Made by a program: the position numbers and the translations under genes. Below the pieces are notes generated by a model. That model was not told the origin of the DNA and did not search any database. It worked only from the letters and a program-made list of their open reading frames with translations. From Streptomyces sp. SAI-127 (GTDB lineage: Bacteria > Actinomycetota > Actinomycetes > Streptomycetales > Streptomycetaceae), in NCBI RefSeq assembly GCF_029894425.1, contig NZ_JARXYJ010000001.1:806001-870000 (forward strand): a stretch of 64,000 bases of DNA. The letters are read 5' to 3'. Positions 2,617 to 45,857 of the stretch are shown here, in pieces. How positions within the stretch are numbered: the first letter of the stretch is position 1; every line of letters starts with the position of its first letter.

Positions 2617-2635
2617 TTAGATAATTATAGTATCC
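2617..2635. promoter_or_regulatory. Divergent promoter with TAG-N-TAA-type motif
   Basis: The 109-bp gap between two divergent catabolic genes contains an AT-rich island, TTAGATAATTATAGTATCC, in otherwise high-GC DNA. Related islands occur at 5503, 8125, 11994, 15950, 20697, 21934, 37681, 39549 and 45824. It is probably an overlapping promoter and operator; the candidate regulator is the GntR protein encoded at 11132. Confidence 0.5.
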
Positions 2636-2660
2636 ACACTGAATACACCAGGAGCGCGAC

Positions 2661-3482
2661 GTGACCGATCCCTACGCCCCGTTCACGAGCCTGACCTTCG
2701 AGCGGCCCGCGCCCGGCGTGCTCCGGATCGTGCTCGACGCCCCGAACCTCAACGCCGTGGATCCGCGCATGCACGGCGAACTCGCCGACATCTGGTCCGT
2801 CGTGGACCGCGACGAGGAGACCCGAGCGGTGCTCGTCCAGGGGGCGGGCAGGGCGTTCTCGGCAGGCGGGACCTTCGACTCCATCGACGCCATGACCGAG
2901 GACTACGCCGTGCGCGCCCGGGTGATGCGGGAGGCGCGGGACATGGTCTACGGCGTCCTCAACTGCTCCAAGCCGGTGGTCTCCGCGATCCACGGACCGG
3001 CGGTCGGGGCGGGGCTGGTCATCGGCATGCTGGCGGACATCTCCGTCGTCGCCCGCACGGCGAAGATCGTCGACGGGCACACGCGGCTCGGCGTCGCGGC
3101 CGGTGACCACGCCGCCATCTGCTGGCCGCTGCTGTGCGGCATGGCGAAGGCAAAGTACTACCTCCTCACGTGCGAGACCCTCACCGGCGAGGAGGCCGAG
3201 CGGATCGGGCTGGTGTCGAAGTGCGTGGACGACGCGGACGTGCACACCGAGGCCCTGCGGGTGGCGACCGCGCTGGCGGCCGGGCCGGCCAGCGCGATCA
3301 GCTGGACCAAGCGGTCCCTCAACCACTGGTACCGCACGGCCCAGCCGATCTTCGAGGCCTCGCTCGGGCTGGAGTTCTTCGGGTTCGGCGGGCACGAGGT
3401 GGTCGAGGGACTCGCCGCGCACCGCGAGAAGCGGCCCGCGGACTTCGAGGGCGTCAGCGGCAAGCACCCGCTCGACCTGTGA
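2661..3482 (+). CDS. Enoyl-CoA hydratase/isomerase family protein lacking both canonical glutamates
   Basis: A 273-residue crotonase-fold protein with GTG start and a GGAG element upstream. The oxyanion-hole region reads [14 protein letters not shown] and the second glycine helix [16 protein letters not shown]. Where typical hydratases have the two catalytic glutamates, this protein has V (GAGLVIG) and D (GVAAGDHAA). It therefore belongs to the GD-x-A crotonase group and may be an isomerase, hydrolase or retro-Claisen type enzyme rather than a standard hydratase. It leads a rightward two-gene unit with the MaoC protein. It resembles the protein at 8169 closely enough to be a paralogue. Confidence 0.88.
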
Positions 3483-3509
3483 CCACCGTACGAGAGGAAC
3501 CGATCGATC

Positions 3510-4010
3510 ATGGCACCGCAGCCGACCAGCACCGACGTCCCCCTTCTGGTCAAGGGACTGACCTATGAGGAGATGCCGGTCGGGCAGGTCTTCCGGACCG
3601 CCCGCCGCACCATCACGGAGACCGATCTGGTCAACTTCGTCACTTGGGGCGGCTTCACCGAGCCCCTCTTCTGGGACGCCTCGCACGCAGCGGACGGCGG
3701 CTACACGGGGCGACTGGTCCCGGGAGGACTGACGTACTGCATCGCCGAAGGGCTCGTCCTGCAGACGAACGTGCTGCACGGCACCGGCCTCGCCTTCCTG
3801 CACATGGATCTCACCGTGCAAGGTCCGGTGTACGTCGGCGACACCGTGTACGCCGTCGTGGAGACCACGAACTGCCGGCCCTCCAGCAAGCCCGGCCGGG
3901 GCGTGGTGACCAGCCGGATCACGGTACGCAACCAGCGGGACGAGGACGTCCTCGTCTACACGCCGGTGCGACTGATCCGCGGCAGGGACTACGAGGCTCC
4001 GGCATCCTGA
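3510..4010 (+). CDS. MaoC-like hot-dog dehydratase
   Basis: A 166-residue single hot-dog protein. The N-terminus has the characteristic YEEMPVGQVFRTARRTITETD followed by FVTWGGFTEPLFWD and RLVPGGLTYCIAEGLV. In catalytic MaoC/R-hydratases the D-x-N-P-x-H dyad sits at the TEPLFWD position; the histidine is absent, so hydratase activity is uncertain and a heteromeric non-catalytic role is possible. It lies 27 bp after the crotonase gene, same operon. The next gene is convergent. Confidence 0.8.
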   Translation: MAPQPTSTDVPLLVKGLTYEEMPVGQVFRTARRTITETDLVNFVTWGGFTEPLFWDASHAADGGYTGRLVPGGLTYCIAEGLVLQTNVLHGTGLAFLHMDLTVQGPVYVGDTVYAVVETTNCRPSSKPGRGVVTSRITVRNQRDEDVLVYTPVRLIRGRDYEAPAS

Positions 4011-4053
4011 GGCCGGGGCCGGGATGACGAGGGCTCCCGCATCCTGAGCCCGG
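3993..4053. repeat. Imperfect tandem duplication at the 3' end of the MaoC gene
   Basis: CTCCGGCATCCTGAGGCCGG at the MaoC stop recurs about 40 bp later as CTCCCGCATCCTGAGCCCGG, and GGGACTACGAGG is also repeated. This looks like a short slippage duplication in the convergent intergenic gap. Confidence 0.5.
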
Positions 4054-5477: not shown

Positions 5478-5502
5478 GGTTACCGTCCAGGCGGTGAATG
5501 GT

Positions 5503-5517
5503 TTAGCGCATTCAACT
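5503..5517 (-). promoter_or_regulatory. Upstream motif of the GH1-like gene
   Basis: TTAGCGCATTCAACT lies 26 bp upstream of the ATG. It shares GCATTCAACT with the island in the divergent gap at 8125-8144, suggesting the same regulator. A second CGCTAAC element follows at about 5535. Confidence 0.4.
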
Positions 5518-8080: not shown

Positions 8081-8124
8081 ACGCGTCCTCCGTCACTCCA
8101 GTGAGCCGTTTCCAGAAAGCTTAA

Positions 8125-8142
8125 TTAGTTATAGCATTCAAC
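8125..8142. promoter_or_regulatory. Divergent promoter with TAG-N-TAA-type motif
   Basis: TTAGTTATAGCATTCAAC lies in the 88-bp gap between divergent crotonase genes. It resembles the island at 2617 (TTAG-TA-TATAG-AT spacing) and shares GCATTCAACT with the site at 5508. Confidence 0.5.
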
Positions 8143-11131: not shown

Positions 11132-11923
11132 TCAGCCGAGCAGGTCCAGGACGGTGGTCATGGACCTGTTCTGCAGCAGGTAGTCCTCGGCCTCCTGGAG
11201 GTGGAGGCGCCACAGTTCCTCGGCGGCCTCGGTCTGGCGCGCGGCGACGAGCTCGACGAGGGCGCCGTGGGCGCGGAAGCCCCGGCGGTTGGCGCGTACG
11301 TTCTCGGGGCTGCCCGCGTCGAGGTCGACGTGGGACCAGTTCGCCTGGTCGATGATGTGCCGGACCATGCCGTTGAGGACGCTGAGCGTCTCGTTGCCCG
11401 CCAGTTCGACGACCAGCGCGTGGAACTGCATGTGGGCGCGGATGAAGGCCGACGGGTCGTCCATCAGGGTCTCCGCCTCGGCGACGGCGGCTCGCAGCCG
11501 CTCCAGGTCCTCGTCCGTGCGTCCCTCGGCCAGCAGTCCGGCGCACGGTGCCTCGATGACCGTACGGGCGTCGTAGACGTCCTTGAGGGTCGTGCCCCGG
11601 TATTCGAGGACCACGCCGGCGTACCGGGCCGCGACCGTGCCTTCCGGGGTCTGCACCCGTGCCCCGCCCCGGGCGCCCCGGCGCACGCTGATCAGCGACT
11701 CCGACTCCAGCACCCGGAACGCCTCACGCAGCGTCGGCCGGGAGACGGCGAACTCCGCCATCAGCGCCGACTCGGCCGGCAGCGCCTCGCCCTCGGTCAG
11801 TTCTCCGCGCACGATCTTGCGGCGCAGCTGTGCCGCCACCAGCTCGGCCATCTTGGGGACGCGGACCTTGACACCGTTCACGCCCCCACCGCCACCGCCC
11901 TGCCGCCCCGTCGTACTCGTCAC
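11132..11923 (-). CDS. GntR-family regulator, FCD (FadR/VanR) subgroup
   Basis: A 263-residue regulator. The N-terminal winged helix is visible as LRRKIVRGELTEGEALPAES then FAVSRPTLREAFRVLESESLISVRRG; the C-terminal all-helical FCD ligand domain follows with the metal-binding pattern D-x-R (YDARTVIE), H-x-x-x-H-like FIRAHMQFHALVVELAGN and a late R-x-H (GFRAHGALV). The GTG at 11923 is preferred because GGAGG lies 8 bp before it; an in-frame ATG exists at 11947. Its own promoter gap carries the locus motif at 11994, so it is the best candidate for a local, autoregulated repressor responding to a pathway acid or CoA ester. Confidence 0.9.
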   Translation of the reverse strand: MTSTTGRQGGGGGGVNGVKVRVPKMAELVAAQLRRKIVRGELTEGEALPAESALMAEFAVSRPTLREAFRVLESESLISVRRGARGGARVQTPEGTVAARYAGVVLEYRGTTLKDVYDARTVIEAPCAGLLAEGRTDEDLERLRAAVAEAETLMDDPSAFIRAHMQFHALVVELAGNETLSVLNGMVRHIIDQANWSHVDLDAGSPENVRANRRGFRAHGALVELVAARQTEAAEELWRLHLQEAEDYLLQNRSMTTVLDLLG

Positions 11924-11993
11924 CGGGCCCACCTCCGTCCGACCCACAGGTGCGGGGACACAGCCCGAGCACCGGGTAGACGGTTCACTCTAC

Positions 11994-12010
11994 TAGATAA
12001 CTGATTGAAC
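11994..12010 (-). promoter_or_regulatory. Promoter/operator motif upstream of the GntR gene
   Basis: TAGATAACTGATTGAAC forms the core of a partly symmetric element (CTAG at both ends, 11993-12013). It nearly matches the sites at 39549 (GCTAACTGATTGCA), 20697 and 37681. The 3' end of the last conservon gene touches it. Confidence 0.5.
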
Positions 12011-12612
12011 TAGGTTACCGAGTTCGAGTTCGCGGCGATGAGATGTTCGGCCAGCGCGAGCAGCAGATCGCGGCCGACCGACCGCTGCCGCATGTCCCCG
12101 ATCACCAAGGGGACTTCCGGGTCCAGGTCCAGCGCTTCGCGGATCTCCCGCTCGTCGCGTTCCTGGCGGCCGTGGAAGCAGTTGACGCCGATCACGAACG
12201 GGATGCCGCGGCTCTCGAAGAAGTCGATGGACGCGAAGCTGGACTCCAGCCGTCGGGTGTCGGCGACGACCACCGCGCCCAGCGCGCCGTGCACGAGGTC
12301 GTTCCACATGAACCAGAAGCGCTCCTGACCAGGTGTCCCGAAGAGGTAGACCACCAGGCGCGGGTTGACCATGATGCGACCGAAGTCCATGGCCACCGTG
12401 GTGGTGGACTTCCGCTCGACGCCCTCGACGTCGTCGACGCCCACGCTCGCGACGGTCAGGTACTCCTCGGTGCGCAGCGGCGCCACCTCGCTCACCGCCC
12501 CGACCAGGGTCGTCTTGCCGACGCCGAAGCCACCGGCGACAAGGATCTTGACCGCCGCGGGGGCCGAGCCGTCGTAGGCCCGGCCCGCGGGGTCAGAGTC
12601 TGCGAAGGCCAT
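12010..12612 (-). CDS. cvnD: Conservon GTP/ATP-binding protein (CvnD type)
   Basis: A 200-residue Ras-like P-loop protein with Walker A GGFGVGKTT (about residue 28), Walker B/G3 FGTPGQERF, and VVVADTRRLESSFASIDFFE. In Streptomyces conservons the fourth gene encodes such a membrane-associated small GTPase-like switch. It overlaps the DUF742 gene by 20 bp. Symbol denotes conservon position, not a numbered locus. Confidence 0.95.
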   Translation of the reverse strand: MAFADSDPAGRAYDGSAPAAVKILVAGGFGVGKTTLVGAVSEVAPLRTEEYLTVASVGVDDVEGVERKSTTTVAMDFGRIMVNPRLVVYLFGTPGQERFWFMWNDLVHGALGAVVVADTRRLESSFASIDFFESRGIPFVIGVNCFHGRQERDEREIREALDLDPEVPLVIGDMRQRSVGRDLLLALAEHLIAANSNSVT

Positions 12613-12982
12613 CCCTCACCGCCCGAAGAAGTGTCATATCCATTGCGCTTCCTACTGCTACAGCGATCGGTGGACGGGTGGTGGCCCTGCCCAGCGCGAC
12701 CAGGTCGTCGATCAGGATTTTCGTCACCGCCACGGGCAGGTTCAGTTCCGCGGCGATCTCCGCCACCGCGGCGGGTGTGCGGCACTGCTGGAGGATCGAG
12801 CGGTGCTCGGGTTGCAGGCCTCGCAGACCGGCCCGGCCGGGCGCCGGTTCGACGGTTGTCACGAGGGTGATCAGAGTGAGGTCGTCACGCGCGGGTGCTG
12901 TCCGGCCCTGGGTGATCGTGTAAGGCCTGACCGACAGCTCTTCAGCGTCTCCCGCTTCCAGGCCGTCCATCCAGTGGCTCAC
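12593..12982 (-). CDS. cvnC: Conservon DUF742 protein (CvnC type)
   Basis: A 129-residue protein with the DUF742 pattern: VRPYTITQGRT near the N-terminus, LRGLQPEHRSILQQCRTPAAVAEIAAELNLPVAV, then ILIDDLVALGRATTR, a winged-helix-like region. It overlaps CvnB by 4 bp and CvnD by 20 bp, the normal tight arrangement of these four genes. Confidence 0.95.
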   Translation of the reverse strand: MSHWMDGLEAGDAEELSVRPYTITQGRTAPARDDLTLITLVTTVEPAPGRAGLRGLQPEHRSILQQCRTPAAVAEIAAELNLPVAVTKILIDDLVALGRATTRPPIAVAVGSAMDMTLLRAVRDGLRRL

Positions 12983-13413
12983 TCACGTACACCGACCTCG
13001 TCGGCGGGCGCACCGAAGCGTGCCTCGGTGCTCATGCGCTGGCCCACTTGCTGCATGAGGGTGTGCATGGCCACGGCCATCAGTTCGGCGTCCACTTCCT
13101 GGGATGCCACGACTGCCAGATGCGTGCCCCGGCCCGCGGCGGAGATGAACAGCCACAGGTCGGTCAGCTCGACGATGACCTGGTGCACCGAACCGCCGCC
13201 GAACAGCTGCCCGACCCCGCGGGCCAGGCTCTGCTGGCCGGTGGCGATGGCGGCGAGGCGTTCGGCGTCGCCGCGGACGATGGTGCGGGACTGGCTGACC
13301 ACCAGCCCGTCGTCGGACAGCACGATGGCGTGGTGCGTGCCGGGAACCTGTTCGACCAGCCCGTCCAGCAACCAGTCGAGGTCCGGATGGGTGGCGGTCG
13401 TTCGCATTGTCAT
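12979..13413 (-). CDS. cvnB: Conservon Roadblock/LC7 protein (CvnB type)
   Basis: A 144-residue Roadblock/LC7 domain protein: DLDWLLDGLVEQVPGTHHAIVLSDDGL, then RLAAIATGQQSLARGVG and GRGTHLAVVASQEVDAELMAVAM. Such proteins act as a GTPase-regulatory partner of CvnD, comparable to MglB with MglA. It follows the sensor kinase by 2 bp. Confidence 0.95.
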   Translation of the reverse strand: MTMRTTATHPDLDWLLDGLVEQVPGTHHAIVLSDDGLVVSQSRTIVRGDAERLAAIATGQQSLARGVGQLFGGGSVHQVIVELTDLWLFISAAGRGTHLAVVASQEVDAELMAVAMHTLMQQVGQRMSTEARFGAPADEVGVRE

Positions 13414-13415
13414 GG

Positions 13416-15926
13416 TCAGTCTTCCGTCGGGATCCGTCTACGTTGCGGCAGCACGTCGGTGGGTTCGTGGTCGGTCGGGGGAGCATCGCGCCGGACCATC
13501 CGGGACTGGCGTTGGAAGGCGCCGATCGTCGCGCCGGAGCGGGCGGGCGCGGACCGGCGGGCCAGTTCCTGCTCGTCGGGCGAGGGCGCCCGCAAGTCCG
13601 CGTTCGGGTCGCGCAGTTCGTCGGCGAGACTGGCCAGGCGGACCCGTTTGGGCAGTGGTCGCACGTCCGGCGCGGTATTCGCACGGGGTGTCTCGGCCGC
13701 CGCCCGCGGTGCGCCCGCCATCTGCGGCACTCCGTGGGGGCCCGGCGGCCGGGTCCAGACATCGTCGGCGGGCGGCGCGGCGCCGTACGGGCCGACACGG
13801 GCGGTCACCAGCGTGTCCACGTCCAGCGTCGTGGCATGTTCCGTCCCGGGCACGTCCGTCACGGCCGCTTGATGCACCGGCGGCCAGGCGGGGTCGACTT
13901 CCGCGGCTGTGGGGCCGGTCCGTCCGGGGGCGTCGACGACGAGTTCGTCGGGGATGAGGACGACCACCCTGGTGCCGCCGAACGAGGAGGGCCGCAGCTC
14001 CACCTGGATGCCCAGGCCACGCGCCAGCCGGGCGACCACATAGAGGCCGAGCCTGACGTCGTCCGCCCGGGACATGACGTCCATGCGGGGCGGTTCGGTC
14101 ATCAGCCGGTTGGCCGCGTCGTACTGGTCGTCGTCCATGCCCACGCCGCGGTCCTCGATCTCCACCGCGAGGCCGCGCCCCACGCGGGCGGCGTACACCT
14201 CCACCGGCGTCGGCGGCTTGGAGAAGCCGACCGCGTTCTCCATGAGTTCGGCCAGCACGTGGATGACCAGACCGACCGCGCGCTCGGCCAGCCACACGCG
14301 TTCCTCGACGTCGATCTGGATCCGCCGGTAGTCCTGCACCTCGCTCTGTGCGGAGCGCAGCACATCCAGCAGCAGGACCGGTTTGCGCCAGCGGCGCTGA
14401 GGCTGGCCGCCCCCGAGGATCACCAGGTTCTCCTCGTAGCGCCGCAGTCTGGCGGTCAGATGGTCGAGGTCGAACAGGCCCTCCAGTACCTCGGGATCCT
14501 CGTGCCGGCGCTCCAGCTCACTGAGCTTCTTCATCTGGAGACCGATGAGCAGCTGGGTACGCCGGGCGATGCGCTGGAGGAGCTTTTCGAACCCGCGGAA
14601 CTGCGACACCTGCGCCATCGTCGTGTCCAGGGCGCTGTGGCGTGCGAGGTTCAGCGCCTGGCCCAGCTGGCCCAGTTCGTCGTCGCCGTGCTGGATCGCG
14701 GGCAGTTCGGCATCGAGGTCGACGACTTCTCCTCCGCGCAGGCGTTCGACCACGTCCGGCATCCGGGTCTGCAGGTCCAGGGCGGCGGCGCGCAGTGCGG
14801 AGATCCGGCGGCGCAGCGACCGGGTGAGCAGTGCGCTGATGAGCACGACCACGAGCACCGCCGCCGCGCCCAGCACGCTGGTGAAGATCAACCGCACCAC
14901 CATGGCGTGCAGTTCCTTCTCGGTGGCCGCCGTCAGGGTCACGGAGTAGGCGGTGTTGAGCTCCTGGAGCTGGGTAGCGACCGGCCCGACGCTGCCGCTC
15001 CACGTCGTGCCGAGTTCCTTGGAGAACTTGTCCGGGTCGGTCCCGGAGGCGGAGCCGGCCAGCACGTCCTGCTCGGCCGTCGTCTTCTGCTTCCAGGCGC
15101 TGCCCGCCATCAGTTTCCGGTACAGCGCGGCCTGGTCGTCGGGGACGAGGGGCACGATTTTGTTGTCGTAGAGGAAGTGCTGGGAGCCGATCCATCCGGC
15201 GAGCTGCCCGCGTTCGGTGGCGGAGAGCCGTCCGGTCACCGAGCCGCGGGTGAACAGCGCGTTCTCCCGCGAGATCATCTCCATGCCCCAGACCGAGTCG
15301 ATGGCCGGCCGGGCGAGGTAGTCGATGTTGGGCAGACCGACGTGGCTCAGGGTGGTGAACAGGTTCAACTGGCCGGAGATCAGGTTCGTATAGCGGTCGA
15401 ACGTCTGCTGCTGCGAGGCGGTTCGCTGGTCCACCCCGGCCCGGTAGTCGGCCAGTTTCCGAAGGTTCCTGCCCACCTGGACGACGTTGGCGCGGATGTC
15501 GTCCGGGGCGCTCCAGTCGCTGTCGGGCAGTTCCTGGACGGTCGTGACGTCGGCGTCGGTGCGGATGCGCTGCGCGCGCAACGCCTTCTGGTAGCCCGCG
15601 CGATCGGCGAGCTCCGCGCCGCTGAGCCGGCGTTCCTCCTGGAGGTCGAAGAAGGCCGCCATGATCGGACGTGCCGCCGCATTGGAGGCCGCGTTGCGGT
15701 CCTTCTGCTTCTGCCAGTCCGTGTAGAGCTGCGCGGAACTCGCCAGCCACAGGGCCACGAGGGTCACACTGGGCACCAGGGCCAGGATGAGCAGGACCGT
15801 TCGGAGTGACGGCTGTCGCCGGGCTCCGCTGCCCCTTGGGCCTTGTCTCTTCGACGCACGTGCGTGCACTGCCACTGAGGTCCCCAGCGATGCTCCAAGT
15901 GTCAGGCCGCTCCGATGGGCCCGCAC
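13416..15926 (-). CDS. cvnA: Conservon sensor histidine kinase-like protein with nitrate/sulfonate-sensing ectodomain (CvnA type)
   Basis: An 836-residue membrane protein. A first membrane helix (VLLILALVPSVTLVALWLAS, about residue 45) is followed by an extracytoplasmic helical domain of about 280 residues of the NIT type, a second helix (VLGAAAVLVVVLISALLT, about 355), a HAMP-like linker, and an HATPase domain with N-box ELMENAVGFSKPPTP and G1 EIEDRGVGMDD. No clear phospho-acceptor H-box is visible, as in other conservon kinases. The C-terminal 200 residues are proline-rich and low-complexity. An alternative GTG start at 15875 is possible. Confidence 0.93.
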   Translation of the reverse strand: MRAHRSGLTLGASLGTSVAVHARASKRQGPRGSGARRQPSLRTVLLILALVPSVTLVALWLASSAQLYTDWQKQKDRNAASNAAARPIMAAFFDLQEERRLSGAELADRAGYQKALRAQRIRTDADVTTVQELPDSDWSAPDDIRANVVQVGRNLRKLADYRAGVDQRTASQQQTFDRYTNLISGQLNLFTTLSHVGLPNIDYLARPAIDSVWGMEMISRENALFTRGSVTGRLSATERGQLAGWIGSQHFLYDNKIVPLVPDDQAALYRKLMAGSAWKQKTTAEQDVLAGSASGTDPDKFSKELGTTWSGSVGPVATQLQELNTAYSVTLTAATEKELHAMVVRLIFTSVLGAAAVLVVVLISALLTRSLRRRISALRAAALDLQTRMPDVVERLRGGEVVDLDAELPAIQHGDDELGQLGQALNLARHSALDTTMAQVSQFRGFEKLLQRIARRTQLLIGLQMKKLSELERRHEDPEVLEGLFDLDHLTARLRRYEENLVILGGGQPQRRWRKPVLLLDVLRSAQSEVQDYRRIQIDVEERVWLAERAVGLVIHVLAELMENAVGFSKPPTPVEVYAARVGRGLAVEIEDRGVGMDDDQYDAANRLMTEPPRMDVMSRADDVRLGLYVVARLARGLGIQVELRPSSFGGTRVVVLIPDELVVDAPGRTGPTAAEVDPAWPPVHQAAVTDVPGTEHATTLDVDTLVTARVGPYGAAPPADDVWTRPPGPHGVPQMAGAPRAAAETPRANTAPDVRPLPKRVRLASLADELRDPNADLRAPSPDEQELARRSAPARSGATIGAFQRQSRMVRRDAPPTDHEPTDVLPQRRRIPTED

Positions 15927-17559: not shown

Positions 17560-17563
17560 GAGG

Positions 17564-31730: not shown

Positions 31731-32974
31731 GGCCGCACCTCCTTGGCAGCGGTGGTCACCGGTTCCTTGGGCAGGCCGAGGACGCGTTCCGCGAGGATGT
31801 TCTTCATGATCTCCTCGGTGCCGCCGAGGATGCGCAAGGCAGGGGTGGCCAGGAGCAGTTCGGTCCAGGCGTAGGTGCCCCACTGGCCGGTGTCCGCGAT
31901 GATCCGGGGGCCGAGCACGTCGGACACGAAGTGTGCGGCTCGGGTCAGGTTCTGGCCGTACATCAGCTTCGAGACGGACATCTCGGGGCCCGGTGCTACC
32001 CCGCCGCGCAGTTTGCGCAGGGCGCGTGCGTTGAGGTGCTCGGTCGCCATGACGTCCACGAGGAGTTCACCGAGGCGCGCGCGCAGGGCGCGGTCGTCCC
32101 AGGTCCAGGTGGCCCGCATCAGCGCCGAGAGGTGGTCCGGGGACAAGGCAGCGCCCACCGGGCCCACGCCCTCGCTGCCGACCGTCGCGCGCTCGTTCAT
32201 CAGGGTGGTCAGGGCGACCGTCCAGCCGCCGTCGACCTCACCGAGCCGGTGGTCGTCGGGGATGCGGACGTCGGTGAGGAACACCTCGTTGAAGTCCGCG
32301 CCGCCGGTCATCTGCCTGAGCGGCCGGACCTCGACGCCTGGCGTGTCCATGGGGACCAGGAAGGCCGTGATGCCGCGGTGCTTGGGCGCGTCGGGGTTCG
32401 TGCGGGTGAGCGCGAGTCCGATCTGGCTGTGCTGGGCGACCGACGTCCACACCTTCTGCCCGTTCAGCACCCAGTCCCCGCCCTCGCGGACGGCCCGGGT
32501 CGCCACGCTCGCCAGGTCGGATCCCGCGCCCGGCTCACTGAACAACTGGCAGGCGATGGCGTCACCGCGGTACATCGCCGGCAGCCAGCGGTCCTTGATG
32601 TGGGGCTGGGCGTGGGCCAGGATCGTCGGCCCGATCATGCCCAGGCCGATCACACTGAGCACACCGGTGTCGGCGACGTCGTACTCCGACTCGACGGCGT
32701 CGTAGAGGAGGTCGTGGACCGGGGTCAGTCCCCGGCCGCCGTACTCCACCGGTCCGGTGATCCAACCGAAGCCGTTCTCGTGGCGGATCCGCTGCCACTC
32801 CCGGGCGCGTTGCACGAACTCCCGCTCCTCCTCGGGCGGGAGGCTGCTGAAGTACGCCATCGAGTCGTCGCCCTCGCCCCAGGTGACGGTGGTGCGGTCG
32901 GGGGCCTTCGCCACGTGCGCGTCGAGGAAGCGGCGCGCCTCGGCGGCGAAGTCCCGCATGTCGTCGGATTCCAT
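31727..32974 (-). CDS. Acyl-CoA dehydrogenase family protein, large-subunit type
   Basis: A 415-residue protein: MRDFAAEARRFLDAHVAKAP near the start, WITGPVEYGGRGLTPVHDLL, LFSEPGAGSDLASVATRA, GQKVWTSVAQHSQIGLALTR, and ILGGTEEIMKNILAERVLGL. It resembles the large protein at 229 (same G-Q-K-V-W-T-S and V-L-G-L-P-K-E-P end), so the 229/1427 and 31727/30615 pairs look like duplicated modules. It lies 16 bp after the thiolase gene. Confidence 0.92.
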   Translation of the reverse strand: MESDDMRDFAAEARRFLDAHVAKAPDRTTVTWGEGDDSMAYFSSLPPEEEREFVQRAREWQRIRHENGFGWITGPVEYGGRGLTPVHDLLYDAVESEYDVADTGVLSVIGLGMIGPTILAHAQPHIKDRWLPAMYRGDAIACQLFSEPGAGSDLASVATRAVREGGDWVLNGQKVWTSVAQHSQIGLALTRTNPDAPKHRGITAFLVPMDTPGVEVRPLRQMTGGADFNEVFLTDVRIPDDHRLGEVDGGWTVALTTLMNERATVGSEGVGPVGAALSPDHLSALMRATWTWDDRALRARLGELLVDVMATEHLNARALRKLRGGVAPGPEMSVSKLMYGQNLTRAAHFVSDVLGPRIIADTGQWGTYAWTELLLATPALRILGGTEEIMKNILAERVLGLPKEPVTTAAKEVRP

Positions 32975-32990
32975 CGCGTTCGCTCCGCTG

Positions 32991-34139
32991 TCAGGTCGAG
33001 AGGATCGTCACCGCCGACGCGCCGGGCGCGCCGTACAGGTGGGTGTAGCCGACGCGCGGTGTGCCGGGGATCTGGCGCGTGCCCGCCGTACCGCGCAGCT
33101 GGAGGACGATCTCGTGGATCTGGCGCAGCCCTGACGCGCCGATCGGTTCGCCGTTGCCGAGCAGTCCGCCGTCGGTGTTGACCGGGAGCCGGCCGCCGAT
33201 CTCGGTGGCGCCCTCGGCGATGAGGCGTTCCTGCTCGCCGTCCTTGCAGAGGCCGTTCTCCGCCATGTGGATGACCTCCGAACCGGCGTCGGTGTCCTGG
33301 AGCTGGGCGACGTCGACGTCCTCGGGGCCGATGCCCGCGCGTTCGTACGCCTCCCGGGACGCCTCCACGCTCGGGCTGTCCACGGGCTCCCCCACCGGGA
33401 ACGACGGGCTCTGCACCTCGAACGCGCCGAGCCTGCGGCTGCGCAGGGAGGTGGCACGGACCCGTACGGGGGTGGAGGTGTACTTGTGGGCCTGGTCGGC
33501 CCGGCACATCACGACGGCCGCGGCGCCCTCGTTCGGGCCGCAGTACATGAACTGGCGCAGGGGGTAGTTGAGGACCGGGGAGGCGAGGACCTCCTCGGGC
33601 GACAGGGGCGTACGCCGCCAGGCCTTCTCGTTGCCGGCCGCGTTGCGGAAGTTCTTCGAGGCCACGCGAGCCAGCGTCTCGTGGGAGATGCCGTGCTCGT
33701 GCATATAGCGGTTGATCTTCATGCCGAAGAAGTGGGTCGTGAGGAAGAGCCCGGTCTGCCCGTACCAGGAGGGGATGCCGGCCACGGACGGGTCGGCGGC
33801 GAACGCGCCGCGCGGGTGCTTGTCCAGGCCGATCGCGATGGTCAGGTCGTGCTCACCGGTCTCGATCGCGCGGGCGGCCAGCGCCACCGCCGTACCGGCC
33901 GTCGCGCAGCCGTTGAAGACACCGCGCATCGGTATGCCGGTCAGGCCGAGCCGGCCGACGATCGCGTCCGGGTTGGCGACCTCGTAGCTGCCGATGTAAC
34001 CGCCCTGGATCTGCGGCCAGTTCACGCCCGCGTCGGCGAGCGCCAGCCGTACCGCGTCCGCGCCCATGTCCAGCGCGGGCTTGCCGGGGAAGCGGCCGAA
34101 GGGGTGGAGGCCCACCCCGATGATGACGGCCTCGGTCAT
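32991..34139 (-). CDS. SCP2-type thiolase/lipid-transfer protein retaining a Cys at the first active-site position
   Basis: A 382-residue thiolase-fold protein: VIIGVGLHPFGRFPGKPALD, FNGCATAGTAVALAARAIE, YCGPNEGAAAVVMCRAD, PVNTDGGLLGNGEPIGASGL and YTHLYGAPGASAVTIL. C is present in N-G-C-A-T, unlike the paralogue at 16408, but the usual G-H-P-L-G-A-T-G histidine is glutamate (GNGEPIGASG). It may be a thiolase variant or an aldolase. ATG chosen because it overlaps the stop of its DUF35 partner by 4 bp. Confidence 0.88.
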   Translation of the reverse strand: MTEAVIIGVGLHPFGRFPGKPALDMGADAVRLALADAGVNWPQIQGGYIGSYEVANPDAIVGRLGLTGIPMRGVFNGCATAGTAVALAARAIETGEHDLTIAIGLDKHPRGAFAADPSVAGIPSWYGQTGLFLTTHFFGMKINRYMHEHGISHETLARVASKNFRNAAGNEKAWRRTPLSPEEVLASPVLNYPLRQFMYCGPNEGAAAVVMCRADQAHKYTSTPVRVRATSLRSRRLGAFEVQSPSFPVGEPVDSPSVEASREAYERAGIGPEDVDVAQLQDTDAGSEVIHMAENGLCKDGEQERLIAEGATEIGGRLPVNTDGGLLGNGEPIGASGLRQIHEIVLQLRGTAGTRQIPGTPRVGYTHLYGAPGASAVTILST

Positions 34140-34609
34140 GACGCCTCCTCGATCCGGGCGGACTCTTCGATCCGGGTGGCCTCTTCGACCGGGGCGAACG
34201 CGAAGGTGACGACCTCGGTGCCGTCGTCCTGCACGGTGTAGGGCACGAGCGTCAGCCGCATGTCCTGCCCGATCCGCAGCTTCTCCGGGTCGGGTTCGGT
34301 GAGGCGGGCCTCGACCAGCAGCTCGCCGGGGAGTTCGATGTATCCGACGGCGTAGGGCTCGAAGGTCTGGGGGCCGTCGTACGGCGGGGACGGCGGGCGG
34401 AAGTCCTGGGTCGTGTACGTCCAGAGCGTGCCGCGGTCCGCCAGGAGCCGTTCCTTCGACTCGTCGCTCGCGCACCGGACGCAGGTCGCGGCGGCCGGGA
34501 AGCTCACCAGGCCGCACACCCGGCACTCGGAACCGATCAGCCGGAGGGGCGCGGCGGCGGGCGGCCAGGTGAACAGGCCCTCGGCGACGGGGCGTTGTGT
34601 CGTCGTCAT
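34136..34609 (-). CDS. DUF35 OB-fold/Zn-ribbon protein, partner of SCP2-type thiolase
   Basis: A 157-residue protein with a zinc ribbon (SECRVCGLVSFPAAATCVRC) followed by an OB fold (TLWTYTTQDFRPPSPPYDG, FEPYAVGYIELPGELLVEAR). It is coupled by 4 bp to the thiolase gene, repeating the 16016/16408 arrangement with the gene order reversed. The C-terminal tail ATRIEESARIEEAS is an acidic repeat. Confidence 0.93.
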   Translation of the reverse strand: MTTTQRPVAEGLFTWPPAAAPLRLIGSECRVCGLVSFPAAATCVRCASDESKERLLADRGTLWTYTTQDFRPPSPPYDGPQTFEPYAVGYIELPGELLVEARLTEPDPEKLRIGQDMRLTLVPYTVQDDGTEVVTFAFAPVEEATRIEESARIEEAS

Positions 34610-34610
34610 C

Positions 34611-35522
34611 TCAGGCTCCGTTCCGGCTGCCGAGGGCGTCGGCGTTCGGAGCCGCCTTGGCCACCAGGTTCGGGACGACGGAGGACAGCTCCTCCGGGGT
34701 CCAGCGGGTGTCGGCGCTCGCGGCGGGGCCGTTGACCCAGCCCTCCAGCACGGTGATGCGGTTGCCGACGACGCCGAACACCCTGCCGGTGACCTCGCGC
34801 GAGGCTGCCGAGCCCAGCCACACCACCAGGGGCGAGATGGCCTCGGGGGTCAGGTCCTGACTCTCGGCGGCCTGCTTCATCATCTCGATGTCCTCGGTCA
34901 GCCGGGTCAGCGCGGTGGGCGCGATGGCGTTCACCGTCACGCCGTAGCGGGCGAGTTCGGCGGCGGCGATGATCGTGAGGCTGGCGGTGCCGGCCTTCGC
35001 GGAGCCGTAGTTGGACTGGCCGGGGTTGCCGAAGATGCCGGACGGGGAGGTCGTGTTGATCACCCGGGCGTCGTTGGACTGGCCGGCCTTGGCGCGCTCG
35101 CGCCAGTACGCGGCCGCGTGGTGCAGTGTGGCGAAGCTGCCCTTGAGGTGGACGGCGATCACACTGTCCCAGTCCCGCTCGGTCATCGACACGATCATCC
35201 GGTCGCGCAGGATGCCGGCGTTGTTGACCAGCACGTCCAGGCCACCGTAGGTGTCCACGGCCTGCCGGACGAGCCGGCCGGCGCCCTCCCAGGTGGAGAT
35301 GTCGTCCGTGTTGGCCACCGCCTCGCCACCGGCCGCGACGATCTCGTCGACCACGCTCTGCGCGGGCCCGGCGGAGGCGCCCCCGCCGTCCCGTCCGCCG
35401 CCCAGGTCGTTGACGACGACCTTCGCCCCGTGTGCGGCGAACGCCAGGGCGTGCGCCCGGCCGATCCCGTTGCCGGCGCCGGTGACGACCGCGATCCGGC
35501 CTTCGACCACTCCTTCAGACAT
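34611..35522 (-). CDS. SDR of the 17beta-HSD4/(3R)-hydroxyacyl-CoA dehydrogenase type
   Basis: A 303-residue SDR: VVTGAGNGIGRAHALAFAAHG, VVVNDLGGGRDGGGASAGPA, VVDEIVAAGG, NNAGILRDRMIVSMTERDWD, NYGSAKAGTASLTIIAAAEL. The N-D-L-G-G insert marks the MFE-2 type that acts on (3R)-hydroxyacyl-CoA. The C-terminal T-R-W-T-P-E-E-L helix is also typical. It lies 1 bp from the DUF35 gene and is a paralogue of 24732. Confidence 0.92.
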   Translation of the reverse strand: MSEGVVEGRIAVVTGAGNGIGRAHALAFAAHGAKVVVNDLGGGRDGGGASAGPAQSVVDEIVAAGGEAVANTDDISTWEGAGRLVRQAVDTYGGLDVLVNNAGILRDRMIVSMTERDWDSVIAVHLKGSFATLHHAAAYWRERAKAGQSNDARVINTTSPSGIFGNPGQSNYGSAKAGTASLTIIAAAELARYGVTVNAIAPTALTRLTEDIEMMKQAAESQDLTPEAISPLVVWLGSAASREVTGRVFGVVGNRITVLEGWVNGPAASADTRWTPEELSSVVPNLVAKAAPNADALGSRNGA

Positions 35523-35545
35523 GCTCAATTCCTCCATCGGAAAGG

Positions 35546-36256
35546 TCAGTTGGCCTCGGCGAGCAGGACTCGCGGGGTGTCGCTGCCGCAGCCGCACCGG
35601 CCGGTGACGACGCGGCCGGTGATGCCGAGCGGTGTCTCGGGCAGGGGCGAGGTGCGCCCCTCTCCCGATGCCACGGTCAGCTGTCCGTCCCGCTCGCCGA
35701 ACCGCCATTCGGCGGCGTTGACATGTGCGCCGCTCCGCTCGGGGCACTCCAGCGCGAGAGCCGGTCCCACCGCCGAGATCACGGAGGCGGTCACCCCCAC
35801 TCCGCGCAGGACGGGTATGGCGGCGGGCCGGGCCAGCACGACAGGGGTGGACCGGAACATCTCGCCGATGTCGGCCATGCCGGCGAGTCCTTCCAGCGTC
35901 TCCGCCGACAGGCCGATCACCGCGTGCGGGGTGAGCTCGCGGTGGAAGACCGCGGTGCGGCGATGGTCCCAGCCCATCGCCTCGGCGATGCCGTACGGCA
36001 CTTTGAGCGTGCGCAGGGCGCCGATCACCGCGTGTCCCCAGAAGCCCTCGAAGCCGGAGGCGGTCAGCAGGGCCCGTTGCCCGGCGGCGAGGCCGTGCTC
36101 CCGCAGGCGTGCGGTGGCCCACTCGGTGTCCCGGGCGAGTTCCGCCCAGGTCAGCTCCAGGTCCCGGACGCCGTCGGCGGTCGGGAAGCGCATGAGATAG
36201 GCGAGTTCGGGGCGGTCGAGCGTCCTGGCGCGGGCCAGGGTGTCGGCGCGGGCCAT
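35546..36256 (-). CDS. Short PaaK-like (adenylate-forming) protein lacking P-loop and C-terminal domain
   Basis: A 236-residue protein. LELTWAELARDTEWATARLR and ALLTASGFEGFWGHAVIGAL followed by TLKVPYGIAEAMGWDHRRTA and IGLSAETLEGLAG resemble the middle of phenylacetate-CoA ligase-type enzymes; VTGRCGCGSDTPRVLL resembles the C-x-C-G segment seen in the neighbour (CGCGRTHARM). The S-S-G-T-T-G loop and the C-terminal lobe are missing. It overlaps the stop of the full-length PaaK gene by 1 bp (TGATG), so the two are co-translated; a regulatory or partner subunit is plausible. Function not known. Confidence 0.65.
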   Translation of the reverse strand: MARADTLARARTLDRPELAYLMRFPTADGVRDLELTWAELARDTEWATARLREHGLAAGQRALLTASGFEGFWGHAVIGALRTLKVPYGIAEAMGWDHRRTAVFHRELTPHAVIGLSAETLEGLAGMADIGEMFRSTPVVLARPAAIPVLRGVGVTASVISAVGPALALECPERSGAHVNAAEWRFGERDGQLTVASGEGRTSPLPETPLGITGRVVTGRCGCGSDTPRVLLAEAN

Positions 36257-37578
36257 CAGGTCTTCACCACCCGGGGGAACTTGGCGACGCTGGTCATGGT
36301 CTTCAACAGGTCCTCCTCGGTGCGCATGTCGAGCACCGGCTTGACTCCGGTCCGCTCGCGCACGGCCTCGCTCAGGCGTCCGGCCAGGGCGTCGACGTCG
36401 CCGGTGAGATGGGGGTCGTAGCCGACGCGCAGCCGCAGTTCGTCGACCTCGCGCCGGTCCCGGACGATCTGGAAGACCCCCGCGACGGTCTCCGGCTGGT
36501 CCTCCACCGCCTGCCAGACGTCCCGCAGGACGACAGAGCGGCCCTGGACCACCGTCTCGTCGCCGCGCCGCCCGGCCACCCACATGCGGGCGTGGGTACG
36601 GCCGCAGCCGCACGTGTCGCGGGACAGGCGGACGAGGTCCTCGCTGCGGTAACGGATCAGCGGCGCGGCCCGGTTGTCCAGGTCGGTGGCGACCAGTTCG
36701 CCCAGGTCGCTCTCGGGGACGTCGTGCCAGCCGTGCTCGTCGACCTCGACGCACTCGGCGAAGACGGTGTCCTCCCAGATGTGGAAGCCGTCGTGCTCGC
36801 GGCACTCCCAGGCGGTGCCGGTGTCGGCGGCGCTGGTGTACTCGTAGACGTCGATGCCCCAGTCGTCGCGGATCCGCTCGCGCATCTTCCGGCTGAGGGG
36901 CTGGCCGGCGCAGGAGGCGCCCTTGAGGGAGGAGAAGGCTTCCCTCAGGTCGGTCTTCTCGGCCAGGTGCTCCAGCTCCACCATCTGCGGATACATCATC
37001 TGCAGGTAGGCGGGGCGGTAGGTGCGCAGGGCCTCGACGACCTCGGGCATGTTGCCCATCCAGGTGTCCACCTCGATGACCACCGCGCCCAGCGCCTGGA
37101 AGCCGGCGTCCATGAAGTTGCGGAAGGTGCCGGGCGGGCTCAGGACCCGGTCTCCGGGCCTCAGGCCCAGCTCCCACAGGTCACGTACCTGTGCGGTCAC
37201 CAGGGGCGGTGCGTCCTGCCAGATCTCGGCGAAGAACTCCGGGTCGCCGGTGGTTCCGGAACTGGAGGAGACCGAGGTCAGCTCCTCGACCGGGACGCAG
37301 AGCAGGCCGGCGAAGGCATCGCCGGTGCGGCTCCGGTAGGCGCGGATCATGTCCTTGGTGATGAACGGGATGCGTGCCCGGAAGTCCTCCAGGGACCGGA
37401 TGTCGCGCGGGTGGACCCCATGCTCGTCCCACAGCTCGCGGTAGAAGGCCGAGTTGGCGTAGGCGTACTCGACGAGCTCCAGGAGCTGTTTCTCCTGTCG
37501 CGCGCGCAGTTCCTCGCGCGGCATGGTCTCCACCTGGGGCTCGAAGTACCTGTCAGCGGTGTCCCTGTCACCGACCAT
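36256..37578 (-). CDS. Phenylacetate-CoA ligase family protein (PaaK-like)
   Basis: A 440-residue ANL enzyme: LLELVEYAYANSAFYRELWD, FRARIPFITKDMIRAYRS, P-loop SVSSSSGTTGDPEFF, PPGTFRNFMDAGFQALGAVV, EYTSAADTGTAWECREHDGF, PLIRYRSEDLVRLSRDTCGC and a C-terminus ending KFPRVVKT, which corresponds to the PaaK G-K-x-x-R-V. It should activate an acid to its CoA thioester, probably the entry step for the 30.6-37.6 kb operon, of which it is the first gene. Confidence 0.9.
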   Translation of the reverse strand: MVGDRDTADRYFEPQVETMPREELRARQEKQLLELVEYAYANSAFYRELWDEHGVHPRDIRSLEDFRARIPFITKDMIRAYRSRTGDAFAGLLCVPVEELTSVSSSSGTTGDPEFFAEIWQDAPPLVTAQVRDLWELGLRPGDRVLSPPGTFRNFMDAGFQALGAVVIEVDTWMGNMPEVVEALRTYRPAYLQMMYPQMVELEHLAEKTDLREAFSSLKGASCAGQPLSRKMRERIRDDWGIDVYEYTSAADTGTAWECREHDGFHIWEDTVFAECVEVDEHGWHDVPESDLGELVATDLDNRAAPLIRYRSEDLVRLSRDTCGCGRTHARMWVAGRRGDETVVQGRSVVLRDVWQAVEDQPETVAGVFQIVRDRREVDELRLRVGYDPHLTGDVDALAGRLSEAVRERTGVKPVLDMRTEEDLLKTMTSVAKFPRVVKT

Positions 37579-37640
37579 GGCGCCTCCTCGCGGCTCAGTG
37601 CCCAGATCTTCCAGCTATCAGCGCAATCAGTCAACCAATT

Positions 37641-37673
37641 CGACGGATTGAGCGCGAGGCTCGCGCTCCGTCG
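37641..37673. promoter_or_regulatory. Strong hairpin in the divergent PaaK/ETF promoter region
   Basis: GAGCGCGAG-G-CTCGCGCTC (37650-37668) is a perfect 9-bp inverted repeat with a 1-nt centre, extended by CGACG/CGTCG outside a 4-nt bulge. It lies between divergent start codons, so it is not a terminator of either flanking gene. It could be a protein site or a leader structure of the paaK-like transcript. Confidence 0.5.
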
Positions 37674-37680
37674 ATCTATA

Positions 37681-37696
37681 TAGTTAACTATTAGCA
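37681..37696. promoter_or_regulatory. Promoter/operator motif upstream of the ETF genes
   Basis: TAGTTAACTATTAGCA contains the palindrome TAGTTAACTA and matches the locus motif at 11994, 20697 and 39549. It lies 26 bp before the etfB start. Confidence 0.5.
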
Positions 37697-39503: not shown

Positions 39504-39548
39504 TCTTTCCAGGCCCGGCCTTCCCTTCAGCCAGCCATACAACTAAAA

Positions 39549-39565
39549 TCGCTAACTGATTGCAT
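39549..39565 (+). promoter_or_regulatory. Promoter/operator motif upstream of the amidohydrolase operon
   Basis: TCGCTAACTGATTGCAT lies 35 bp before the ATG at 39601. CTAACTGATTG nearly matches ATAACTGATTG at the GntR promoter (11998-12007). Confidence 0.5.
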
Positions 39566-44119: not shown

Positions 44120-44135
44120 CACGAGGAGTCACAGC

Positions 44136-44657
44136 ATGTCGGAGTCGTCACCGACGGGGCCGTGGGCGGGGGCGGACTTCCAGGAGCCGCCCCGGACCCC
44201 TGGCGGGGTGGCCCTGTGCGGGGCGTGTCGCGCCGCCGGTTCCTGCCGACTGGGAGTGGAGCACGAGCGGCTCGACGAGGACGGGTCGGCGCGGTTCGAG
44301 CTGTCCTGCCCGCGAGACCAGGAGGGCGGGCCCGAGGTCGCGCACGGCGGCTGGACCGCGGCCGTACTGGACGACTGCCTCGGCCATCTGCCACTGCTGC
44401 ACCGGGTGTTGAGCGTGACGGCGGAACTGACGGTGAGCTTCGTGAAGCCGGTGCCGGTGGAACGGCCGCTGGAGGTCCGGGCCTGGGTGGAGAAGCGGGA
44501 GGGCAGGCGCTGGTACATCGCGGGCGAGATGGTGCTGCTGCCGACGCGGGCCGTGTTGGCCCGGGTCTCCGGGATCTGGGTGACCCGGGACCAGGGCCAC
44601 TTCGCACGGCACCAGGAGTGGCTGGCCGGTCAGGACCTGGACGGCGGGGCTCAGTAG
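44136..44657 (+). CDS. PaaI-like hot-dog thioesterase
   Basis: A 173-residue protein. LCGACRAAGSCRLGVEHERL may bind a metal; the hot-dog core shows GPEVAHGGWTAAVLDDCLGH (H-G-G active-site turn) and LTVSFVKPVPVERPLEVRAW. It should hydrolyse acyl- or aryl-CoA and could release CoA from stalled intermediates. Start chosen for GAGGAG 8 bp upstream; an earlier in-frame ATG lies inside the preceding gene. Its 3' end overlaps the convergent dehydrogenase by 7 bp. Confidence 0.85.
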   Translation: MSESSPTGPWAGADFQEPPRTPGGVALCGACRAAGSCRLGVEHERLDEDGSARFELSCPRDQEGGPEVAHGGWTAAVLDDCLGHLPLLHRVLSVTAELTVSFVKPVPVERPLEVRAWVEKREGRRWYIAGEMVLLPTRAVLARVSGIWVTRDQGHFARHQEWLAGQDLDGGAQ

Positions 44658-45808
44658 GACCTGAGCCCCATGCTGCGGGCTATGCCGTTGCGCTGGATCT
44701 GGCTCGTTCCTCCGGAGATCGTGGCCACGATCGACTCCCGGTAGCGGAAGCTCATCACGCTCTCCGTCGAGAACCCGTGGCCCGCGCAGACCTGCATCCC
44801 GAGCCGGGCGGCCGCCACGTACGTCTCCGAGCCCTTCAGCTTCGCCATCGACCCTTCCCGTGTGCACGGCTTGCCCTGGGCGAGCAGCCAGGCCGCCCGG
44901 TAGGCGAGCAGCCGGGCGGAGTCGATCTCGGTCTGCAGGTCGGCCATGGCGTGCGCGAGGGCCTGGAAGTTGCCGATCGGCCGGCCGAAGGCGTGCCGGT
45001 TGCGGGCGTATTCGAGCATCTCGTCGAGCGTGGCCTGCGCGGCGCCCAGATAGCCCCCGCTGATGATCACCTTCTCCAGCTCGATGTTGGAGAGCATCAC
45101 CTTCCAGCCCTCGTCGCGCGGGCCGACGAGGTTCTCCTTCGGCACCAGGGCGTCGTTGAAGAAGACCTCGTTGGTGCCCAGGATGTGCCGGGCCAGTGTC
45201 GGCGTCCGGCGCACCTCGACGCCCTCGGTCGCGGGATCGACGAGCAGCAGGCTGATGCCGCCGTGCTTGGGTTCGCGGGGCCCGGTCCGCACGTAAGTGG
45301 CGATGGTGGTGTCGGGCAGGCCGCCGCCCGTGCACCAGGCCTTCTGGCCACGGACGAGGAAGTTGTCCCCGTGGTCCTCGGCGGTGGTGCGCAGCGCCGC
45401 GGCGTCGGACCCGCTGTCCGGCTCGCTGAGACCGACGGCGAGCCGGTGGCGGCCCGTCATCACCTGCTCGCGGATGAAGTCGCGCTGCGCCTCGCTGCCC
45501 CACCGGAACACCGTGATGCCGGGGATGAGCACTCCGATGTAGCACATGGCGACGTCGAAACTGGCCCGCCCGAGCTCCTCGGCGATCAGGATGAGCTCCA
45601 GTGGTCCGCCGCCGTCACCGCCCTCGTCCTCGGCGAACGGGAGCGAGAACCACCCGAGGTCGGCCATGCCCCGAAACAGCTCGGGCGGTACGACGCTCTC
45701 CTCGTCCCACTGCTTGGCCTTCTCGGCCGGGCACACGTCGGCGACGAACTTCCGAGCCGTCGCACGCAACAGGTCCTGCTCGTCGGTCAGTCCGAAGTCC
45801 ACGGCCAC
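44651..45808 (-). CDS. Acyl-CoA dehydrogenase
   Basis: A 385-residue protein: MAVDFGLTDEQDLLRATARK, GLSEPDSGSDAAALRTTAED, GQKAWCTGGGLPDTTIATYV, NRHAFGRPIGNFQALAHAMA, and ATISGGTSQIQRNGIARSMG. The Y-E-G-T glutamate is absent. LPFAEDEGGDGGGPLE replaces the usual P-E-E-Y-G-G. It is monocistronic, with a locus-motif island upstream, and closes the CoA locus on this side. Confidence 0.92.
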   Translation of the reverse strand: MAVDFGLTDEQDLLRATARKFVADVCPAEKAKQWDEESVVPPELFRGMADLGWFSLPFAEDEGGDGGGPLELILIAEELGRASFDVAMCYIGVLIPGITVFRWGSEAQRDFIREQVMTGRHRLAVGLSEPDSGSDAAALRTTAEDHGDNFLVRGQKAWCTGGGLPDTTIATYVRTGPREPKHGGISLLLVDPATEGVEVRRTPTLARHILGTNEVFFNDALVPKENLVGPRDEGWKVMLSNIELEKVIISGGYLGAAQATLDEMLEYARNRHAFGRPIGNFQALAHAMADLQTEIDSARLLAYRAAWLLAQGKPCTREGSMAKLKGSETYVAAARLGMQVCAGHGFSTESVMSFRYRESIVATISGGTSQIQRNGIARSMGLRSY

Positions 45809-45823
45809 TCCTTGCCAGCACTA

Positions 45824-45857
45824 GGCTATTCATCTATCTAATTGTTCTATGTTAGCG
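45824..45857 (-). promoter_or_regulatory. Promoter island with TAG-N-TA motifs
   Basis: On the minus strand this reads CGCTAACATAGAACAAT followed directly by TTAGATAGATGAATAGCC, two elements related to those at 39549 and 2617. It lies 16 bp upstream of the dehydrogenase start. Confidence 0.45.

Follow-up and report, generated by a model that had tools for sequence, protein, structure and literature searches.

A shared palindrome in the promoter gaps of a Streptomyces acyl-CoA gene cluster, a probable operator of a GntR/FCD regulator subfamily

Introduction

Operators of the FadR subfamily of GntR-type regulators have been described as a TKGT/ACMA box with three or, in several groups, two bases between GT and AC. 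In these regulators, arginine at position 28 of the helix-turn-helix (HTH) goes with G/C at site positions 6/14 and avoids A/T (Suvorova et al. 2015, PMC4494728). We analyzed a 64,000-nucleotide stretch of Streptomyces sp. SAI-127 (the window), positions 806001-870000 of contig NZ_JARXYJ010000001.1 in a 10.72-Mb genome of three contigs, in which AT-rich gaps between acyl-CoA genes share a sequence element. An initial annotation of the window had read this element as a TAG-N-TAA promoter motif linking ten gaps across 43 kb. It had proposed as probable reader the autoregulated product of a GntR/FCD gene at 11132. The sites described here are AT-rich palindromes with a GT/AC core, and carry A instead of K at positions 6/14 of the FadR-subfamily box.

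A literature search turned up no account of this operator or subfamily in titles or abstracts; as most subscription journals lay outside its coverage, this is weak evidence of absence.

Results

The shared element is a 16-bp palindrome

AT-rich islands were set mechanically (at least 54% AT per 50 bases), and the ten islands in the first 45.9 kb (2576-45903) were submitted to a motif finder, our own expectation-maximisation script of the zero-or-one-occurrence-per-sequence (ZOOPS) type and not MEME. Controls for the width-17 motif were 20 equal-sized island sets drawn from another 400 kb of the genome, together with 20 dinucleotide shuffles. The motif scored 68, against 46 ± 2.5 (maximum 53.9) for background islands and 44 ± 2.4 for shuffles. 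A search forced to be palindromic at the even width of 20 read nnAattaGnTAnCtaatTnn with a score of 60.3; controls for palindromic searches were run only at width 17 for the ten islands and at width 16 for the further de novo searches. At width 17 the forced search gave ntAnctnAnTnagnTan, scoring 40.7 against 24.8 ± 2.1 for background islands and 23.0 ± 1.1 for shuffles. This reading differs because an even palindrome cannot centre at an odd width. Thus, the shared motif is a 16-bp palindrome, AATnAGTTAACTnATT, and TAG-N-TAA is one side of it. The six strings quoted in the initial annotation are all exact at their stated coordinates on the plus strand, and the shared sequence it had noticed is real, but what it named is half of the palindrome. 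TAG-N-TAA as the motif itself was rejected: TAGNTAACNNATT occurs in 3 places in the genome, 2 of them within the window.

The consensus over 43 aligned sites is nnAATnAGTTAACTnATTnn, with a GT-TA-AC core of two-base spacing. Pooling all 61 collected sites in both orientations gave AATtAgtTAacTaATT, where position 5 is weak. The core is degenerate at -3 (G, 0.57; T, 0.39), the base at 6/14 is A with a frequency of 0.84 (both orientations counted), and a weak AGnT lies beside the operator at -13 to -10. A covariance model of the operator (R1) had no match at E ≤ 10 anywhere in the genome, which is what a 20-base low-information model leads one to expect. A 14-mer search allowing three mismatches was useless for counting, with 78 matches against 128 for the reversed 14-mer.

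The sites form an array restricted to promoter gaps

A palindromic scan matrix was fixed on the ten window islands. One island had been cut short, so that one of the ten training sites (5547) is wrong and the weak site at 5495 came from the scan alone. The scan matched all ten gaps of the initial annotation, nine of them at 17.0-25.6 bits and the tenth (its 5503, our 5495) weakly, at 15.5 bits. The claim that these gaps share one motif was thus borne out. The candidate operators of the window are:

2609..2628, 24.4 bits; divergent gap 2552-2660 between an acyl-CoA dehydrogenase gene (1427-2551, minus strand) and an enoyl-CoA hydratase gene (2661-3482, plus strand)
5495..5514, weak, 15.5 bits; upstream of a GH1-family gene (4062-5477, minus strand)
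8121..8140, 25.6 bits; divergent gap 8081-8168 between two enoyl-CoA hydratase operons
11989..12008, 24.4 bits; upstream of gntR1
15950..15969, 19.2 bits; upstream of a conservon (12010-15926, minus strand)
20692..20711, 25.2 bits; upstream of the aldehyde dehydrogenase-ligase-thiolase-OB-fold operon, 20650 down to 16016 (minus strand)
21930..21949, 17.0 bits; divergent gap 21896-21980 between an acyl-CoA dehydrogenase gene (minus strand) and a short-chain dehydrogenase/reductase (SDR) operon (plus strand)
37623..37642, second and weaker, 16.4 bits; divergent gap 37579-37721, on the side of the CoA-ligase operon (minus strand)
37676..37695, 25.4 bits; upstream of electron transfer flavoprotein genes (37722-39503, plus strand)
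39544..39563, 23.0 bits; upstream of an amidohydrolase_2 gene (39601-40680, plus strand) and the following genes up to 44119
45826..45845, 25.4 bits; upstream of an acyl-CoA dehydrogenase gene (44651-45802, minus strand)

The left flank lay outside the training set. Seven sites were predicted there, at -47392, -39050, -22117, -22006, -21123, -2365 and -2300 (negative numbers are window coordinates left of the window start), and three of them outscore every training site. De novo search of the left flank alone yielded a related palindrome with a score of 46.5, against a shuffle maximum of 24.3. In total, the array has 18 sites above 15 bits in 15 gene gaps over about 93-94 kb. The sites of the 43-kb span given in the initial annotation are there, but the array extends 47 kb left of the window and its length is about doubled. 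Overlapping pairs with 13-bp spacing were seen at -22117/-22104 (-22104 having 14.0 bits) and in two loci of other genomes (L110:18911-18943 and L111:13121-13153); they are perhaps two dimers side by side.

Sixty random 20-kb stretches (1.2 Mb) of the same genome gave 2 matches of at least 15 bits, against 18 in the locus, and the regions on either side of the locus (118 kb to the right and 52 kb to the left) gave none above 14.8 bits. With 200 column-permuted palindromic matrices, at most 6 matches above 18 bits were obtained in the locus, against 14 for the real matrix. Exact matches to AWTNAKNTANMTNAWT number 4 in the 10.7-Mb genome, all in the locus. At one mismatch there are 6 places, 3 of them in the locus, and at two mismatches 56 places, with at least 10 in the locus among the matches listed; AWTNAKNTANMTNAWT was derived from locus sites, so these counts are not independent. 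The two palindromes in random stretches (L205:7642 and L228:4091, 20.3 bits each) adjoin a TetR gene and an ArsR-type gene, respectively, according to Pfam. They may be other regulators' own sites or chance matches.

All 18 sites above 15 bits lie in gaps between our gene calls, which make up 9.6% of the 93 kb, as the initial annotation had held for promoter gaps. Among gaps of at least 60 bp, 15 of 38 carry a site. For 16 of the 18 sites the centre is 20-54 bp from the start codon. Those of gntR1 and the conservon fall outside this range, but with the longer open reading frame (ORF) starts at 11947 and 15926 their distances become 51 and 33 bp.

Comparison of orthologous gaps agreed with conservation of the element. 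In three gaps with 18-22 orthologues each in Streptomyces relatives, the 16-bp operator is 0.97-1.00 identical against 0.74-0.90 for the rest of the gap: 0.97 against 0.85 at 2609 (19 orthologous gaps), 0.99 against 0.74 at 8121 (22) and 1.00 against 0.90 at 21930 (18). We also compared relatives at gntR1, namely 13 of 24 Streptomyces gntR1 loci. Operator 20692 scores 21.6-26.3 bits in 13/13. The weak operator 5495 scores 15.5-17.4 bits in nine, and the other four have none above 15.

Two GntR/FCD paralogues with the same recognition helix

Two close GntR/FCD genes lie within the array:

gntR1, 11132..11881, minus strand (start possible at 11947); GntR winged HTH and FCD domain, proposed operator reader
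gntR2, -21976 to -21173; sole close paralogue of gntR1 in the genome, 55% identical, flanked by sites -22006 and -21123

The ORF 11132-11947 matches PF00392 (GntR; 64.5 bits, 6.7e-18, cut-off 27) and PF07729 (FCD; 79.3 bits, 4.2e-22, cut-off 24.3). The NanR model of NCBIfam, NF003011, gave 119.7 and 111.8 bits, below its cut-off of 260. An AlphaFold2 model shows three helices and two strands in residues 11-76 (mean predicted local distance difference test score, 83.1) and helices through 99-235. Among named genomes, the nearest relatives of gntR1 are in S. canus and S. pseudovenezuelae (98% identity). The subfamily is large, with 3,341 proteins at E ≤ 1e-30 among 8,000 candidates scored; among the 120 matches listed, names went no further than the family.

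Recognition helices of the two paralogues are identical (14/14 residues), the wing reads RGARGG in one and RGAHGG in the other, and the FCD regions share 65 of 151 residues. Therefore the reader cannot be narrowed to the 11132 protein alone. Around the genes of ten further, more distant FCD relatives in the same genome, no site exceeds 12 bits.

HTH position 28 was placed by aligning PAES of our protein with what we take to be the corresponding PAER of FadR. This residue is S, T, A, P, I or L in 124/124 homologue alignments, many of them near-identical. In nine other FCD proteins of the genome it is R in four. Position 38 is Arg throughout. The published contact rule (PMC4494728) ties A at 6/14 to a non-Arg residue at position 28, as found in the homologue alignments.

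The motif follows GntR homologues in other genomes

Within the genus, 11 genomes bearing the GntR had 7-14 pattern matches within one mismatch (mean 10.7; reversed control 0-6), against 0-5 (mean 1.6; reversed control 0-3) in ten genomes without it (Mann-Whitney p = 5e-5). The reversed pattern averages about 2 in both groups. The bearing set comprises 11 of the 15 genomes with a protein match, four with only more distant homologues being left out; the lacking set was picked from 278 genomes without a protein match, and related genomes are not independent.

De novo searches recovered the same palindrome in loci fetched via their GntR. It scored 63.2 in Actinomadura (two loci; maximum of six shuffles 25.6), 46.6 in a Streptosporangiaceae metagenome-assembled genome (24.9) and 59.1 in Streptomyces CME 23 (31.5). 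In Actinomadura locus L133 (20.7 kb) the gene set is largely the same in shuffled order, with five sites of 21.8-28.3 bits. The GntR is the only regulator among its matched genes, the unmatched stretches not having been searched for others.

A distant test used 20 self-chosen loci of 13-20 kb from 19 genomes. Their GntR homologues are 43-63% identical to gntR1, and the acyl-CoA genes around them are for the most part different ones. Matches of at least 16 bits were found in 15 of these loci, 44 in all, against 2 matches in 2 of 20 same-genome control stretches; permuted matrices gave a mean of 8.2 and a maximum of 21 (40 matrices). Nine of the 20 already had a known match close to the gene when chosen. 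The 11 others gave 12 matches in 6 loci, and their controls 0/11 (Fisher p = 0.006).

In Frankia and Protofrankia (L136, L145-L151) the GntR is kept, with hardly any of its neighbours, and the operator is not. The pooled islands of eight Frankia loci, from related species, gave a related palindrome, tnattGntanCaatna, with ATTG/CAAT arms (43.0 against a shuffle maximum of 29.2). In 5 of 8 loci, single-consensus matches of at least 15 bits stand 332-386 bp ahead of the gene. We treat this palindrome as a lead and not as a result.

Genes behind and among the sites

Among the genes that follow a site are those for acyl-CoA dehydrogenases, enoyl-CoA hydratases, thiolase-like and OB-fold proteins, CoA ligases and transferases, a thioesterase and electron transfer flavoprotein. 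They also include amidohydrolase_2 proteins, luciferase-like or F420-type oxidoreductases and a branched-chain-type ABC transporter. Three longer units are:

16016..20650, minus strand; operon under operator 20692 with aldehyde dehydrogenase, AMP-binding ligase, thiolase-like protein and OB-fold ChsH2-like protein (Pfam)
30615..37578, minus strand; gene run behind 37623/37676 with PaaK-like ligase, SDR, thiolase-like protein and two acyl-CoA dehydrogenases (Pfam, without 34136-34609 and 35546-36256); the NCBIfam match of the PaaK-like ligase is below cut-off
12010..15926, minus strand; conservon-type module with NIT sensor kinase, Roadblock, DUF742 and ATP_bind_1 GTPase genes (Pfam NIT, HATPase_c, ATP_bind_1, Robl_LC7, DUF742)

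Conservons are Streptomyces signalling modules whose purpose is poorly known and in which genes for a sensor kinase, a Roadblock protein, a DUF742 protein and a GTPase stand in a row. All four gene types follow one another in 12010-15926. In 9 of the 13 relatives, gntR1 directly follows the aldehyde dehydrogenase-ligase-thiolase-OB-fold genes under operator 20692. In the remaining four the conservon is inserted, as in the window, and exactly those four carry extra sites before the conservon (operator 15950, 16.2-19.2 bits) and before gntR1. With operators before both parts where the conservon intervenes, gntR1 therefore stays behind an operator either way (13/13 relatives). Of the 24 Streptomyces loci, 7 have a site in the 300 bp before gntR1. 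Actinomadura locus L113 has matches to two of the four conservon-type genes (12800-16950), some 5 kb away from gntR1 and close to sites.

Some parts of the array carry no sites. One is a squalene/phytoene synthase cluster at about -19 to -8 kb (-18394 to -9262; L008:1606-10738), which has its own B12-binding MerR regulator and a sigma-70-family factor. Another, judged by eye, is an apparent sugar-transport cluster at -31 to -26 kb. A solute-binding protein gene (27639-28778, minus strand) and a stretch of about 1.8 kb in which our gene calls place little coding sequence (28779-30614) also lie in the locus without operators. At 40719-43148 (plus strand), a CoA-ligase-type protein (CoA-binding, Succ_CoA_lig, ATP-grasp) is fused to an N-terminal GNAT acetyltransferase domain.

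Discussion

Very probably, a GntR/FCD subfamily has the shared sequence as its operator, through which two paralogues would repress about 15 acyl-CoA promoter regions until released by a ligand. The motif, its palindromy, placement and conservation, and its association with the GntR subfamily come from computation; from these we infer binding, repression, a ligand and sharing by both paralogues. With sites centred 20-54 bp before the start codon, a dimer bound to the 16-bp palindrome would cover the promoter. Without ligand, both regulators would repress the promoter regions of the acyl-CoA catabolic cluster and their own genes. The repressed steps would be uptake, CoA ligation, dehydrogenation, hydration, thiolysis and electron transfer. 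An acyl-CoA or acid intermediate would then release the regulators. The products of gntR1 and gntR2 probably compete for the sites or share them, and with their divergent FCD domains they probably answer different ligands.

The islands might instead be ordinary AT-rich -10 promoter sequence, only seemingly shared. Such sequence would also be AT-rich and stand where the sites do, 20-54 bp before the start codon in 16 of 18 cases. We find this hardly credible: the motif is palindromic, background AT-rich islands score 46 ± 2.5 against 68, and 19 of 34 promoter-type gaps of at least 60 bp in the same 93 kb lack it. The initial annotation had named generic -10 sequence as its alternative; it fails on the 2 matches in 1.2 Mb of random stretches against 18 in the locus. 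A real operator with another reader deserves more weight. A TetR gene (-24311 to -23625) lies 1.6 kb from gntR2, MarR-type operators can resemble TTAG-N4-CTAA, and a palindrome alone does not identify a regulator family; our search for other readers did not take in MarR-type genes. The linked TetR was rejected as reader for lack of a close relative in the other motif-bearing genomes tested: none above 46% identity in ten other GntR-bearing genomes, and no match (60% coverage, E ≤ 1e-15) in loci L110, L111, L113, L114 and L133. Moreover, the motif accompanies GntR homologues whose neighbouring genes are not orthologous, and its GT-TA-AC core fits the two-base spacing of the FadR subfamily (PMC4494728). 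Thus, we hold a reader of another kind, the TetR or an unlinked protein such as one of MarR type, to be improbable. Less so, though still unlikely, is that one GntR paralogue alone reads the sites while the other binds elsewhere. The differing FCD regions (65/151 identical) and wings (RGARGG and RGAHGG) would allow this, but the recognition helices are identical, sites lie near both genes, and Actinomadura loci of both types (L113 and L133) are site-rich.

Several observations weigh against an operator of the GntR/FCD subfamily. The position-28 assignment depends on what we take to be the FadR sequence, and AWTNAKNTANMTNAWT loses specificity within two mismatches (66 places against 40 for the reversed control). 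Within Streptomyces, GntR and locus come and go together; therefore only the distant loci separate protein from locus. Five of those 20 have no match of at least 16 bits, and the AT-island content of the 20 is twice that of their controls (0.0054 against 0.0026). In 26 shorter loci (2.2-3.8 kb) such a match was found in only 8. At none of the eight named Frankia/Protofrankia GntR loci does a site of at least 15 bits fall in the 300 bp before the gene, and the gntR2-type gene of Actinomadura L133 has none above 15 bits directly upstream.

Altogether, comparative sequence data support a regulon and its assignment to the GntR subfamily. One regulon with its own operator, as first proposed, is in line with a motif that beats shuffles, background islands and permuted matrices and recurs in other genomes. 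The naming of the 11132 protein as reader agrees with the distant homologues, the contact rule and the scarcity of the pattern in ten same-genus genomes without the protein, but extends to two paralogues. Autoregulation likewise fits gntR1, which has its own operator or an operator-bearing operon in 13/13 relatives, and gntR2 with the sites before it, but not the gntR2-type gene of L133.

Doubtful as yet is a class-wide actinomycete code. A GntR/FCD subfamily lacking Arg28 might keep AATnAGTTAACTnATT and be attached repeatedly to unrelated acyl-CoA clusters, with paralogue pairs, of one recognition helix and differing sensor domains, reading two metabolic signals per promoter and the conservon drafted in some lineages. 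For a GntR subfamily with numerous relatives, the locus offers a proposed operator and a regulon that can be tested, and it would link actinomycete acyl-CoA clusters to one kind of regulator. It would also tie a conservon to a catabolic regulon, and it provides a natural test of the published amino-acid/base contact rule (PMC4494728).

Several described systems resemble this one in part. E. coli NanR is the closest solved chain (6on4, profile match 4e-22) and the best NCBIfam model, with a GntR winged HTH and an FCD-type domain in common. It differs in having Arg at the SER position of the alignment and in binding direct repeats (PMC4494728). HypR of Streptomyces coelicolor is likewise of GntR/FadR type and is an autorepressor with several targets; however, its motif is CTNTGC(A/C)ATGTCAC and its genes are those of hydroxyproline (PMC6608401). 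Corynebacterium glutamicum likewise has a pair of GntR-type paralogues, GntR1 and GntR2, that share a set of catabolic promoters, in its case those of gluconate and sugar genes (PMC2230225). Here the cluster is of acyl-CoA type, the FCD domains have diverged and the sharing is presumed. A further likeness is to operators of the FadR subfamily (PMC4494728). Unlike the common TKGT/ACMA, our sites have A in place of K (AGT-TA-ACT) and conserved AAT/ATT flanks. The weak AGnT and the site pairs 13 bp apart (L110, L111) resemble the extra half-sites of these operators. FadR-subfamily operators are likewise AT-rich palindromes with a GT/AC core, of two-base spacing in several groups, and stand as single sites about mid-way in divergent gaps, as here.

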